In this document: positions 34,864 through 41,292 of the stretch, piece after piece
Layout: each line of letters opens with the position of its first letter
Position numbering within the stretch: the first letter of the stretch is position 1
NCBI GenBank assembly: GCA_013360395.1
Contig: JABWBQ010000017.1
Coordinates: 1-50,193, forward strand
Length of the DNA: 50,193 nucleotides
Origin: Flavobacteriales bacterium
GTDB taxonomy: Bacteria; Bacteroidota; Bacteroidia; Flavobacteriales_F; PHOS-HE28
Direction: 5' to 3'
Position numbers and translations under genes: made by a program
Notes under the pieces: generated by a model
What the model saw: only the letters and a program-made list of their open reading frames with translations
The model's database searches: none
What the model was told of the DNA's origin: nothing

Positions 34864-37539
34864 TCAGCCGTCGAGGGTCTGCTTCACCTCCACGAGCTCG
34901 AAGGCCTCGATATGGTCGCCCACCTTGATGTCGTTGAACTTCTCCACGTTGAGGCCGCACTCGTAGCCGTGGGTCACCTCCTTCACGTCGTCCTTGAAGC
35001 GTTTGAGGCTGCCCAGGTCGCCGGTGTACACCACGATGCCGTCGCGGATCACGCGCACCTTGTTGGTGCGCTTGAGCTTGCCGTCGAGCACGAAGCAGCC
35101 TGCCACGGTGCCCACTTTGCTGATGCGGAAGGTCTCGCGCACCTCGGCCGTGCCGGTGACCTTCTCCACCTCCTTGGGCGCCAGCATGCCCTCCATGGCC
35201 TGCTTGATCTCTTCGATGGCGTCGTAGATGATGGAATACAGGCGGATGTCGATCTCCTCGGTCTCGGCCAGTTTGCGGGCGCCCGGGGTGGGCCGCACCT
35301 GGAAGCCGATGATGATGGCGTCCGAGGCGGTGGCCAGCAGCACGTCGCTCTCGGCGATGGGGCCCACGGCCTTGTGGATGACGTTGACCTTGATCTTCTC
35401 GGTACTGAGCTTGAGCAGCGAGTCGGTGAGGGCCTCCACCGAACCGTCCACATCGCCCTTGACGATGATGTTGAGCTCCTTGAAGTCGCCGATGGCCAAG
35501 CGGCGGCCGATCTCGTCCAGCGTGATGTGCTTGTGGGTACGGATGCCCTGCTCACGCTGCAGCTGCTGGCGGCGCGTGGCGATCTGGCGGGCCTCCCGCT
35601 CGTCCTCCAGCACATAGAAGTGGTCACCGGCATTGGGTGCCCCGTCCAGGCCCAGGATGGACACGGGCGTGGAGGGCCCGGCCTCGTTGACGGCCTGCCC
35701 GCGCTCGTTGAACATGTTGCGCACCCGCCCGCTGAACTGGCCTGCGAGCAGCACATCGCCCTTGCGCAGGGTGCCGCCCTCCACCAGGATGGTGGTGACG
35801 TAGCCGCGGCCCTGCTCCAGGGTGCTCTCGATCACCACGCCCACGGCCCGTTTGCCGGGGTCGGCCTTCAGGTCCAGCAGCTCGGCCTCCAGCAGCACCT
35901 TGTCCAACAGGTTGTCGATGCCGATGCCCTTCTTGGCACTGATCTCCTGGCTCTGGAACTTGCCGCCCCACTCCTCCACCAGGATGTTCATCTGGCTGAG
36001 CTCCTCGCGGATCTTGTCGGGGTTGGCCCCCTCCTTGTCGATCTTGTTGAGGGCGAAGACCATGGGCACCCCGGCGGCCTGGGCGTGGTTGATGGCCTCG
36101 CGCGTCTGCGGCATCACACTGTCGTCCGCCGAGATGACGATGATGGCGATGTCGGTGACCTGTGCACCGCGGGCACGCATGGCGGTGAACGCCTCGTGGC
36201 CCGGGGTGTCCAGGAAGGTGATGTGCCGGCCGCCCTTGAGCTGCACGCTGTAGGCGCCGATGTGCTGGGTGATGCCCCCGGCCTCGCCGGCCACCACATT
36301 GGCGTTGCGCACGTGGTCCAGCAAGGAGGTCTTGCCGTGGTCCACGTGTCCCATGACGGTGACGATGGGCGGGCGCGGCACCATGCGGCGCTCGTCGTCG
36401 GGTTCCACCGGGATGTTCTCCTGCACCTCGGCGCCCACGAACTCCACCTTGAAGCCGTACTCGTCGGCGATCACCGAGAGGGTCTCGGCGTCGAGGCGCT
36501 GGTTGATGCTCACCATGAGGCCCAGGCTGAAGCAGGCCTTGATGATGTCGGTGACGGGCACGCCCATCATGGAGGCCAGTTCGCTGGCGGTGACGAACTC
36601 GGTGACCTTGAGGGTCTTGCCGGCCAGTTCGCGGGCGGCCTGTTCCTCCTCGAAGCGTTGGAAGCGCTCGGCGCGCTTGTCGCGGCGGATCTTGGCGCCC
36701 TTGCTCTTGCCGCCGGTGAGGCGGGCGAGGGTCTCGCTCACCTTGCGCTTCACGGCGTTCTCGTCGAGCTCGCCGGGGCGGCCGCCGGGCCGGTTGGCCG
36801 CATCGCGCTGCTCCTGCTGCACGGCGCGGTCCACGTTCACGGGACCGGGTTTCACGATGCGTTTGCGGCGGCCGCGTTCGCCACCCTGGTCGCCCGTGCG
36901 GTCGGCCGGTTTGCGCTCCTTCTGCACGGGCAGCTCGATCTTGCCCACGGTCTTGGGGCCGGTGAGCTTCTCGGCACGGGCCCGGATAAGCTCCGGCTCG
37001 GCCGGGGCAGGCGGAGGTGCGGCGGGTGTCGGGGTGGCCGGGGGGGCGGGTGCAGCGGGAGCCGGGGGCGCCGTGTCCTTGGGGGCCTCCTCCTTGGGAG
37101 CCTTGTCGCGGGTGGCCGGGGCCTCGGCGGCTTTCTTGCGCGGGCTGAGGTCGATCTTGTCCAAGACCTTCACCGTCGGCTTTTCCACCCGGGCCTTGAT
37201 GGTCTCGGGCGCGGAGGCGGCGGTCGGGGCGGGGGCAGGCGAGGCGGGTGCGGCGGGTTCCTCGGCGGCAGGGCGCGCGGCGGTCTTCTCCGGGGCCAGG
37301 CTGATGGTCTCGCGTTCCTGCCGCAGCTGCACGGTGGCCTTGCTCTGCTCCTTGATCGCCTTGTCGGTGCCGAACTCGGCCAGCAGCAGGTCATAGAGCT
37401 CCCCGGGGAGCTTGGTGTTGGGGTTGCTCTCCACCTTGTGGCCCTTCTTCTCCAGGAACTCCAACACGGTCTGGACCGCAAGGTTGAACTCGCGGGCCAC
37501 CTTGCTCAATCGCACGCCTTTGTCCGCTGCTTCGCTCAT
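34864..37539 (-). CDS. infB: translation initiation factor IF-2
   Basis: The 891-residue GTPase places initiator tRNA on the 30S subunit and promotes subunit joining. The N-terminal domain ([30 protein letters not shown]) is followed by a long P/A/E-rich linker (about 80-300). The G domain starts near residue 395 with [12 protein letters not shown], then [12 protein letters not shown] and [11 protein letters not shown]. The C-terminal domains follow ([18 protein letters not shown] and [23 protein letters not shown]). It is the third gene of the rimP-nusA-infB unit, 44 bases after nusA, and is followed by a hairpin terminator. The length is usual for the Bacteroidota. Confidence 0.98.
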
Positions 37540-37583: not shown

Positions 37584-38822
37584 TCAGCCTTCCAGCTCGG
37601 CCTTCAGGATCCGCACCACTTCATTGATGGTCTCCTCCTCCAGGTCGGTGCGCTTCACCAGCTCATCGACCGGGATGTCCAGCACACTGCGCGCCGTGTC
37701 GCAGCCGATGGCCTTGAGCTCGTCGAGGATCCAGTGCTCGATCTCGTCGGCGAATTCCTCCAGGTCCACATCGTCGGTGACCTCGTCGGTCTCGCGGTAC
37801 ACGTCGATCTCGTAGCCGGTGAGGCGGCTGGCCAGTTTGATGTTGTGCCCGCCCTTGCCGATGGCCAGGGCCACCTGGTCGGGCTTCATGTACACCTCGG
37901 CGCGCTTGTGCTCGGCGTCCAGTTTGATGTTGCCGATCTTGGCGGGGCTCAGGGCACGCTGGATCAGCAGCTGCTCGTTGCCGGTGTAATTGATCACGTC
38001 GATGTTCTCGTTGCGCAGCTCGCGCACGATGCCGTGGATGCGGCTGCCCTTCATGCCCACGCAGGCGCCCACCGGGTCGATGCGGTCGTCGTAGCTCTCC
38101 ACGGCCACCTTGGCGCGCTCGCCGGGCTCGCGCACGATGCGTTTGATGGTGATCAGCCCGTCGGCCACCTCGGGCACCTCCTGCTCGAACAGCTTGGCCA
38201 GGAACTCCGGCGCGGTGCGGCTCAGCACCACCACCGGCGTGTTGTTGCGCATCTCCACCTTCCACACCACGGCCCGCACGCTGTCGCCCTTTTTGAAGAA
38301 GTCGCTCTTGATCTGCTGGTCCTTGGGCAGGATCAGCTCGTTGCCCTCGTCGTCCAGGATCAGGGTCTCACGCTTCCACACCTGGTACACCTCGCCGGTC
38401 ATGATCTCGCCCACCCGCTCCTTGTACTTGTTGTAGAGGTGGTCCTTCTCCAGTTCGAGGATGCGGCTCTGCAGGTTTTGCTTCAGGCTCAGGATGTTGC
38501 GGCGGCCGAAGTCGGCGATCTTCACTTCCTGGCTCACTTCCTCGCCCACCTCGAAGTCGGGCTCGATCTTGCGGGCCTCGGCCAGCTCGATCTCCAGGTT
38601 GTCGTCCTCGCTCATGCCGTCCTCGACGATCTTGCGGTTGAGCCAGATCTCCAGGTCACCCTTGTCGGGGTTGATGATGATGTCCACGTTGGCTTCCTCG
38701 CCGAAGCGTTTCTTCACCACTCCCCTGAATACGTCCTCCAGGATGCCCATCATGGTCACCCGGTCGATGTTCTTGAGGTCCTTGAATTCCCCGAAGGATT
38801 CGATGAGGTTCACGGTGCTCAT
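37584..38822 (-). CDS. nusA: transcription termination/antitermination factor NusA
   Basis: The 412-residue protein binds RNA polymerase and nascent RNA and modulates pausing, termination and antitermination. The N-terminal domain covers about residues 1-130, an S1 domain follows ([20 protein letters not shown], about 136-200), and then two KH domains ([20 protein letters not shown] and [20 protein letters not shown]). There are no C-terminal acidic repeats, as is usual outside the Gammaproteobacteria. The gene lies 7 bases after rimP and 44 before infB. The terminator-like hairpin in the operon leader could make NusA control its own synthesis, which is an inference. Confidence 0.97.
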
Positions 38823-38829
38823 GGCACGG

Positions 38830-39294
38830 TCATTTGAACTTTAGGCTGGCTTGTGTGGAAAGGATGTCGGCGAAGGGCAGTGCGAGCACCTCGGGGCCGA
38901 ACTTGTCCGGCCGGCCCTTGACCTTGCTGTGGACCAGCGGCAGCAGGTGCAGGGCGGTGCTGTCCACGGCCTCCAAACGGCCCTCCAGGGCACGCCCGTC
39001 GGCGAGCTTCACCACCACCAGGCGGCCGATGTGCTTGGTGTACTGGGCGGGCACCTTGAAGGGGCGGCCCATGCCCGGGCTGCCCACCTGCAGTTCCAGG
39101 TCGTGCCCCTGGGCGTCCAGGTCGGCGCGCAGGGCACGGTTCAGCGCAACCAGCTGCTCCAAGGTGATGGCTTGGGGGTCGTCCACCTCCACCACCACCT
39201 TGTCGCCCGGTCGCACCTCCACGTCCACCAGGAAATGGCCGGTGCCCGCCAGATGGCGCTCCACGAGTTGCCGCATGCTCCCTGCGTCGATCAT
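38830..39294 (-). CDS. rimP: ribosome maturation factor RimP
   Basis: This protein of about 154 residues assists 30S assembly. Family motifs are FLVDVEVRPGDKVVVEVDDP, LDAQGHDLELQVGSPGMGRPF (the conserved SSPG-like region) and the C-terminal KVKGRPDKFG. ATG 39294 is used here. A GTG two codons upstream (39300) is an equally possible start. It heads the conserved rimP-nusA-infB operon, with 7 bases to nusA. Its leader of about 65 bases contains a canonical terminator hairpin downstream of a promoter box. Confidence 0.93.
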   Translation of the reverse strand: MIDAGSMRQLVERHLAGTGHFLVDVEVRPGDKVVVEVDDPQAITLEQLVALNRALRADLDAQGHDLELQVGSPGMGRPFKVPAQYTKHIGRLVVVKLADGRALEGRLEAVDSTALHLLPLVHSKVKGRPDKFGPEVLALPFADILSTQASLKFK

Positions 39295-39319
39295 CGTCAC
39301 GGACGGTCGGGGAACAAAA

Positions 39320-39339
39320 AAGAGGGGCCGTCCCCTCTT
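39320..39339 (-). terminator. intrinsic terminator / possible attenuator in the rimP leader
   Basis: An 8-base stem (AAGAGGGG, 39320-39327 on the plus strand, with CCCCTCTT, 39332-39339) has a 4-base loop and is followed on the minus strand by a run of six T. It lies after the ABC transporter stop but also downstream of the TACCTTTG box at 39363-39370, so it may attenuate the rimP operon. Confidence 0.82.
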
Positions 39340-39362
39340 CCTCGCTCATCCGACTGACGGGG

Positions 39363-39370
39363 CAAAGGTA
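39363..39370 (-). promoter_or_regulatory. promoter (TTG-N19-TACCTTTG) of the rimP-nusA-infB operon
   Basis: Exact -7 box, with a TTG on the minus strand at 39390-39392, 19 bases upstream, which is the spacing known for Bacteroidota promoters. It sits directly after the stop codon of the ABC transporter. Confidence 0.68.
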
Positions 39371-39399
39371 CGCATCCGCCGCGATCGGCCAAGCGGGCC

Positions 39400-41229
39400 T
39401 CAGGCGAAGGCCTGCATGTCGCACAAGCGCCGGTAGTGGCCGCCGGCGCCGTGCAGTTGGGCATGGGTGCCCCGTTCCACGATGGCGCCGTCCACCACCA
39501 CGCAGATCTGGTCGCAGTGCTGGATGGTGCTCAGCCGGTGGGCGATCACCAGGCTGGTGCGCCCTTCCATCATCTTGAAGAGGGCATCCTGCACCAGGCG
39601 CTCGCTCTCGGTGTCCAGGGCGCTGGTGGCCTCGTCCAGGATCAGGATGGGGGGGTTCTTCAGCACGGCCCGGGCGATGGCCAGGCGTTGCTTCTGGCCG
39701 CCGCTGAGGCGGTTGCCCATGTCGCCGATGTTGGTCTGGTAGCCCTGTTCCAGCCGCATGATGAAGTCGTGCGCATTGGCGATGCGCGCCGCACGTTCGA
39801 TGTCGGCGGTGGCCACCCCGGGCTGCCCGAAGGCGATGTTGTTGGCCACCGTGTCGTTGAACAGGATGCTGTCCTGGGTCACGATGCCCATCAGGGCGCG
39901 CAGGTCCTTGAGCCGCAGGTCGCGCACGTCGATACCGTCGATGCGCACACTGCCGCCGGTGACGTCGTGGAACCGCGGGAGCAGGCCGGCGAGGGTGCTC
40001 TTGCCGCCGCCGCTGGTGCCCACCAGCGCCACGCTGCGCCCCTTGGGCAGTTCCAGGTCGATGGTGCGCAGTACGGGCCGCTCGTCGTAGGCGAAACGCA
40101 CGCCCTCGAAGGTCACCCGGTCGGCGAAGGTCGCGATGGGCCGGGCATCAGGCCGCTCCTTCACGCTGTTCTCCACGGCCAGCAGGTCGAAGATGCGTTC
40201 GGCGCTGGCGCCGCCCTTGCGGATCCAGTAATAGCCCGTGGTGAAGCTCTTGGCGGGCGCCAGCAGCTGGCTGAACAGGATGATGTAGCCGATGAAGGCC
40301 CCACCGCTCAGGGTGGCGTCCTGCCCGATCACCAGGCTGCCGCCCAGGTACACCAGCACCACCATCACCAGCGCGCCGAGGAATTCGCTGAGCGGCGAGG
40401 CCATGTCGCGCCGCCGCAAGGTGAACACGTTGAGCCGGTTGAGCATCTCGTTCTCGCGGCGGAAGCGTCGGCGCATCTGCTCCTCGCCGTTGAAGGCCTT
40501 CACCACCCGCATGCCCGTGAGGGTCTCCTCCACCGTGCTCAGCAGGTCGGCCGCCTTCTGCTGGGCGCGCAGGCCCTCCTTGCGCAGGCTCTTCCCGATG
40601 CGGCCGATCAACAGCCCGCTCAACGGCAGCAGCAGCAGGGCGATGAGGGTGAGCTTCCACGAGATCCCGATCATCAGCGCCAGGGAGAGCAGGATGGTGA
40701 GCGGCTCGCGGAACACCATCTCGATGTAGTTCATGATGCTGAACTCCACCTCCTGCACATCGCCGGTGATGCGCGCGATGGTGTTGCCCTTGCGCTCCCC
40801 GGTATGGAAGCGCATGGGCAGGTCCAGGATCTTGTCGTAGACCTCGTTGCGCAGGTCCCGCACGGCCCGGTTGCGCAAGATGCCGATGGCCCACAGGGCG
40901 AAATACCGCAGCAGGTTCTTCAGCAGGAAGCACAGGGCCACCACCACACAGATGAACACCAGGCCGCCCATCCGGCCATGCTCCTCGATGTAGGCCGCCA
41001 TGCGCCAGTTGAAGAGCTCGGGCAGCCGCTTGAGCCCCTCCACGCTCAGGCCCACGTCGGGGCGCGCGGTGGGCGGCGGCGCCTGGCCGAACAGCAGGTT
41101 GAGGAAGGGGATGAAGACCAGCAGCGACGCCAGGTGGAACACCGTGCTGCCCAGGTTGAACAACACGTTGAGCACCGCGTACCCCCGGTAGGGCCGCGCA
41201 TAACGCAGGACGCGGAAGAAGTTGCGCAT
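39400..41229 (-). CDS. MsbA-type ABC exporter (fused permease and ATPase)
   Basis: The 609-residue half-transporter has six membrane helices (about 15-330) and a C-terminal nucleotide-binding domain. Visible motifs are Walker A GTSGGGKST near residue 405, the signature LSGGQKQRLAIARA, Walker B ILILDEATSALD and the H-loop VIAHRLST. By family it exports lipids or other hydrophobic molecules as a homodimer. The lipid A flippase MsbA is the closest well-known type, but the substrate cannot be read from sequence. ATG 41229 (MRNFFRVLRYARPY) lies 31 bases after an exact TACCTTTG box. It is divergent from rbfA. Confidence 0.9.
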   Translation of the reverse strand: MRNFFRVLRYARPYRGYAVLNVLFNLGSTVFHLASLLVFIPFLNLLFGQAPPPTARPDVGLSVEGLKRLPELFNWRMAAYIEEHGRMGGLVFICVVVALCFLLKNLLRYFALWAIGILRNRAVRDLRNEVYDKILDLPMRFHTGERKGNTIARITGDVQEVEFSIMNYIEMVFREPLTILLSLALMIGISWKLTLIALLLLPLSGLLIGRIGKSLRKEGLRAQQKAADLLSTVEETLTGMRVVKAFNGEEQMRRRFRRENEMLNRLNVFTLRRRDMASPLSEFLGALVMVVLVYLGGSLVIGQDATLSGGAFIGYIILFSQLLAPAKSFTTGYYWIRKGGASAERIFDLLAVENSVKERPDARPIATFADRVTFEGVRFAYDERPVLRTIDLELPKGRSVALVGTSGGGKSTLAGLLPRFHDVTGGSVRIDGIDVRDLRLKDLRALMGIVTQDSILFNDTVANNIAFGQPGVATADIERAARIANAHDFIMRLEQGYQTNIGDMGNRLSGGQKQRLAIARAVLKNPPILILDEATSALDTESERLVQDALFKMMEGRTSLVIAHRLSTIQHCDQICVVVDGAIVERGTHAQLHGAGGHYRRLCDMQAFA

Positions 41230-41260
41230 ACCCAGGGACCCCGCTGCCGCAGGGCGGGCC

Positions 41261-41268
41261 CAAAGGTA
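41261..41268 (-). promoter_or_regulatory. -7 box (TACCTTTG) for the ABC exporter gene
   Basis: Exact match to TAnnTTTG in the 77-base divergent region shared with rbfA. Confidence 0.58.
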
Positions 41269-41292
41269 GCCGCCCACGCCGCGGCGGGCCGG

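Follow-up and report, generated by a model that had tools for sequence, protein, structure and literature searches.

A probable attenuator hairpin in the rimP-nusA-infB leader of Bacteroidia that tracks nusA rather than rimP

What does a terminator-like hairpin do when it stands between a promoter and the rimP-nusA-infB operon? The locus that raises this question lies in a GC-rich (67%) genome that is kin to uncultured Flavobacteriales; the window, by which we mean the whole stretch of DNA that was analyzed (50,193 nucleotides), is one entire contig. A sequence-only reading of the window had placed a promoter, an 8-bp hairpin with a six-T tract, and then rimP on the minus strand, and it weighed two accounts of them, namely, an attenuator or, as the simpler reading, the terminator of the upstream ABC transporter transcript with a promoter that merely overlaps it. 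Read along the minus strand, the order is the ABC transporter gene (stop at 39400), the promoter, the hairpin with its six-T run, rimP, nusA, and infB, and in the window as well as in relatives the hairpin and T run are located in the 5′ leader of the operon. The features are as follows.

39400..41277, minus strand: ABC transporter gene (PF00664, PF00005), upstream of rimP on the same strand
39363..39392, minus strand: Bacteroidota-type promoter TTG-N19-TACCTTTG (sequence match; TAnnTTTG kept at the same place in relatives)
39355..39359, minus strand: putative transcription start region, placed by the usual spacing of such promoters, a few bases past the −7 box
39320..39339, minus strand: hairpin AAGAGGGG-ACGG-CCCCTCTT, 8 bp (folding energy, −12.6 kcal/mol; compensatory changes in relatives)
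39316..39321, minus strand: six-T run, putative intrinsic terminator (two Ts double as stem bases)
38830..39294, minus strand: rimP, encoding RimP (PF02576, PF17384, NF002531)
37584..38822, minus strand: nusA (TIGR01953, 382 bits, above the cut-off)
34864..37539, minus strand: infB, encoding IF-2 (TIGR00487, 796 bits, above the cut-off)

The promoter described by the sequence-only reading is present as TTG (39392-39390), a 19-base spacer (39389-39371), and the −7 box TACCTTTG (39370-39363), and a search of both strands found a single match to TTG-N19-TAnnTTTG in the window. Transcription of the operon would start near 39357. The hairpin lies where it had been reported, with its 5′ end 23 nt past TACCTTTG on the minus strand; it consists of AAGAGGGG (39339-39332), the loop ACGG (39331-39328), and CCCCTCTT (39327-39320) and can be extended to 16 pairs, including G-U pairs (−23.7 kcal/mol). 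The span first given for the element, 39294-39392, runs exactly from the TTG to the ATG of rimP at 39294, which comparison with relatives supports as the conserved start; the GTG six bases upstream (39300) is not conserved. The claim that no other hairpin in the window has a long U tract also holds when this is defined as at least five Watson-Crick pairs, at least four of them G-C, followed by a run of at least five Ts.

Folding of the 89-nt leader gave −43.3 kcal/mol (z score, −4.05), which was better than 200 of 200 dinucleotide shuffles, and the terminator score of the leader (stem plus T run) was above those of all 60 shuffles made for that comparison. The 3.68-Mb genome contains a single exact match to the hairpin pattern. 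The hairpin was missing from the output of a pattern scanner, apparently because extension of the stem with G-T pairs overran the T tract. Two further features of the window leader were seen: an outer helix (GTCGG with CCGAC) that could lengthen the hairpin (39294-39363), and a 5′ segment resembling CGTCAGTCGGCGGA that is common to much of the genus.

Leaders were then gathered by anchoring on NusA, from the genus, from named public genomes, and from genomes sampled evenly over the class Bacteroidia. Alignment of leaders from related rimP operons, proposed as a check by the sequence-only reading, found box and then hairpin kept in that order: by inspection, promoter, hairpin, and rimP follow one another in about 73 of the 78 class-sampled genomes, which represent some 45 families. 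Within the genus, the hairpins are near letter-identical (AAGAGGGG-ACCG-CCCCTCTT plus T6, 22 to 31 nt past TAnnTTTG). A covariance model (R1) matched the leader hairpin in 94 of 95 sources at E values of up to 10, a count that includes the 17 AT-rich relatives on which it was trained and which match by construction; the one source without a match is a contig that starts inside rimP, and only three matches fell outside leaders in 726 kb. R1 scored the window at just 17.4 bits and had many matches away from rimP in whole genomes; because of its short length and its bias toward AT-rich leaders, it was dropped as a genome-wide finder in favor of NusA anchoring. A MAFFT alignment of the leaders (A1) was left out, as it put the 5′ arms in the wrong positions.

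Base pairing was examined in 100 aligned, non-redundant hairpins of the class. All 100 have GGG/CCC, on whose GGG they were anchored. The second outer pair (stem pair −2) was paired in 98 of 100 hairpins (64 expected by shuffling), the fourth pair in 98 of 98 (83 expected), and the fifth in 86 of 87 (55 expected), counts that are somewhat inflated by a stem search that favors paired stems and by the GGG anchor. GC predominates at the fourth pair, where AT and CG also occur, and the second outer pair occurs as GC, AT, CG, TA, or GT, a variety that, even with the inflated counts, would be difficult to account for if the stem were not maintained. A T-rich tail follows 96 of the 100 hairpins, including those of a 67% GC genus in which the T run stands out; a few have poor T tails (L162, L173, L187, and L207). 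The gap from promoter to stem has a median of 24 nt, the hairpin is always 3′ of the TAnnTTTG box, and in many genomes it ends close to the start codon.

This sample bears directly on the reading that the hairpin is merely the terminator of the ABC transporter transcript and that the rimP promoter overlaps it by chance. In the window, the transporter gene is on the same strand, its stop precedes the hairpin by about 60 nt, and there is no other terminator between them. However, the transporter gene is upstream of rimP only in the closest relatives, and the hairpin is kept where the upstream neighbor is a different gene, a tRNA, or a gene that points away; even within the genus, the upstream gene varies while the hairpin stays nearly identical. 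The absence of the hairpin that this reading predicts where relatives lack the transporter was thus not seen. Among AT-rich loci bearing the element (less than 50% GC, with some genomes represented twice), the upstream gene, taken as the nearest unannotated open frame of at least 80 amino acids, is divergent in 66 of 109, so that there is no upstream transcript to terminate there, and the end of a same-strand gene is no prerequisite for the hairpin. The fixed position 3′ of the TAnnTTTG box is likewise at odds with chance overlap. We therefore reject transporter termination as the reason for conservation and consider it a very improbable account of the hairpin, which in this genome may nevertheless incidentally stop read-through from the ABC transporter gene. 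In several Bacteroidales, the order is promoter, tRNA-Gln, hairpin, and rimP (tRNA-Gln at L076:3399-3470, L087:3396-3467, L088:1188-1259, L097:3399-3470, and L104:3407-3478; also in L075, L082, L085, and L089).

Which gene of the operon the hairpin belongs to can be judged from genomes in which the operon has changed. RimP was not found in seven genomes that are 95 to 100% complete, from three families (G204, G239, G260, and G268 of f47; G210 of f53; G228 and G262 of f71), using Pfam and a Bacteroidota RimP profile with working controls; the profile was added since PF02576 alone is insensitive and missed 14 members of the window's genus. It appears that rimP has been lost altogether in three Bacteroidia families and that nusA directly follows the leader. 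Five of the seven (the four f47 genomes and the one of f53) have a TAnnTTTG promoter and a strong hairpin, e.g., GAAAGGGGGATTTGACAAAGTCCCCCTTTTC or AAAGAGGGGAACAACTCCCCTCTTTTTT, directly before nusA; in f71, the hairpin is weak in G228, and none was found in G262. Conversely, the hairpin is missing in three distant rimP-bearing genomes (G241, G226, and G257) and in a 0.5-Mb genome, which, together with f71, suggests that the loop is dispensable in some lineages. Loci L219, L220, and L221 (f76 and f69; NusA 43 to 44% identical) have rimP and no leader hairpin, and in f69 the start codon comes almost directly after the −7 box.

These genomes amount to a natural experiment: rimP-less genomes keep the hairpin before nusA, and a few rimP-bearing genomes are without it. 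On this comparison of gene content, what the hairpin tracks is nusA (or nusA-infB), not rimP. In every one of the 143 loci that extend far enough, infB comes after nusA, so the two are inseparable as candidate targets of the hairpin. The comparison moves the probable target of control from rimP to nusA-infB.

Beyond the class, a terminator-like hairpin scored above dinucleotide shuffles (P ≤ 0.05) in 17 of 20 leaders from other classes of Bacteroidota, at the same place and mostly with different stem sequences. In f15 (L243, L244, and L245), from another class, the polarity is reversed, with the C-rich 5′ arm first (TCGCCC...GGGCGA), which resembles the first terminator of the E. coli rimP leader; L237, L238, and L239 (f12, f24, and f17) have two tandem terminator-like hairpins before rimP, resembling the arrangement in Gammaproteobacteria. 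That the terminator form is kept while the letters drift would point to a generic terminator that the elongation machinery reads, not to an RNA-binding site recognized by its sequence. The latter point concerns a further explanation, according to which the hairpin is a site or structure other than a terminator, bound, for example, by NusA, RimP, or a ribosomal protein, that steers translation or stability of the mRNA. Its proximity to the start codon in many genomes and the invariant GGG/CCC core within the class would fit such a role, but the nearly universal T run, retained even at 67% GC, and the different core in other classes do not, and the rimP-less genomes exclude RimP as a necessary partner. 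We regard this explanation as very unlikely.

We consider it probable, from the sequence comparisons, that the element is a promoter-proximal attenuator of rimP-nusA-infB, through which NusA most likely exerts negative feedback. The attenuator proposed by the sequence-only reading gains support from the conserved order of promoter, hairpin, and gene, which survives both a change of the upstream gene and the loss of rimP. Transcription would start a few bases past TACCTTTG, and the GC-rich hairpin and U run would be made within about 42 nt. A fraction of the RNA polymerase complexes would stop at the U run and free a short leader RNA, and the remaining complexes would read on into rimP, nusA, and infB. 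NusA prolongs pauses and boosts hairpin-dependent termination, so a rise in NusA would increase early termination and lower the amount of operon mRNA. The idea that NusA feeds back on its own operon reportedly goes back to E. coli genetics of 1985 and was later generalized by sequence surveys, and we infer autoregulation by NusA from such precedents and from the hairpin kept at nusA in rimP-less genomes. Premature termination at the hairpin likely occurs; that NusA sets its level is less certain.

The hairpin could also be a constitutive partial terminator that keeps basal expression of the operon low, with no useful modulation by NusA. An antiterminator above chance was not found in 31 leaders (upstream pairing score, 13.7, versus 13.6 for shuffled sequence), and no aptamer is visible, both of which fit a constitutive terminator, as does the drift of stem letters between classes with the terminator form unchanged; the antiterminator result agrees with the attenuator reading as well. 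A link to NusA fits better with the presence of the hairpin at nusA in genomes that have lost rimP and with the precedents for NusA feedback, and we judge constitutive termination to be unlikely. A candidate antiterminator (GGCGG:CCGCC) that had been seen by eye in the window's genus was rejected, as it was no better than shuffled upstream sequence. A broader and more tentative version of the NusA feedback reading, which could be true almost as readily as false, is that the leaders form a phylum-wide sensor of NusA dosage, i.e., a drifting terminator whose efficiency is tuned to NusA and which is selected via nusA (or infB), not rimP. If true, this would be a phylum-wide feedback loop made from a bare terminator, with neither aptamer nor antiterminator.

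The kind of element is already known, namely, the rimP-leader attenuator. A survey that described this leader in Firmicutes and Gammaproteobacteria placed it first among attenuators by frequency and proposed NusA as its regulator (Naville and Gautheret 2010, PMC2965389); the text of that survey makes no mention of Bacteroidetes. As there, the Bacteroidia leader belongs to the same operon and has a short G-rich/C-rich hairpin and a T run before rimP, with no visible antiterminator. The core reported in the survey is GGGc:gCCC, whereas that in Bacteroidia is GGGGAC:GTCCCC or GGGG:CCCC; in contrast to the surveyed leader, the Bacteroidia hairpin is at most about 42 nt from a TAnnTTTG promoter, is kept before nusA without rimP, and has a stem sequence that is not kept in other classes of Bacteroidota.

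The Rfam family RF01770, the gammaproteobacterial rimP leader (metY-rimP-nusA-infB in E. coli, which scores 102 bits), had no match in the window at the gathering threshold (47 bits) or at E values of up to 10 and none in relatives, and no known Rfam family was matched by the Bacteroidia leader in the window or relatives. In RF01770, the last hairpin (GGGC...GCCC plus T7) stands directly before rimP, as here, and the operon has an upstream tRNA gene, like the tRNA-Gln of many Bacteroidales, whose placement resembles that of metY before rimP in E. coli although the tRNA is apparently different. The family comprises two tandem hairpins over 102 positions, whereas the Bacteroidia leader has one hairpin. 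The E. coli operon is under the control of NusA, one of its own products, and carries two terminators ahead of rimP (PMC6511841). In Streptococcus agalactiae, RNA-seq placed termination in the rimP-nusA leader 31 nt past the start, and NusA feedback was proposed (PMC4448216); the terminator is near the start in both cases, experimentally so in that Firmicute and by sequence alone here. In Flavobacterium psychrophilum, a structured element 5′ of rimP that is conserved among Flavobacteriaceae and has no Rfam match has been reported, and the main text lists it without sequence analysis or mechanism (PMC9723704); going by that description, the same gene in the same phylum very likely carries the same element. 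As far as the literature shows, the description of a putative terminator across Bacteroidia, with no Rfam match, is new, as are the findings that other terminators apparently take its place in sister classes and that it stays before nusA once rimP is lost. The Bacteroidota case thus extends the leader to a phylum outside the text of the 2010 survey and outside Rfam.
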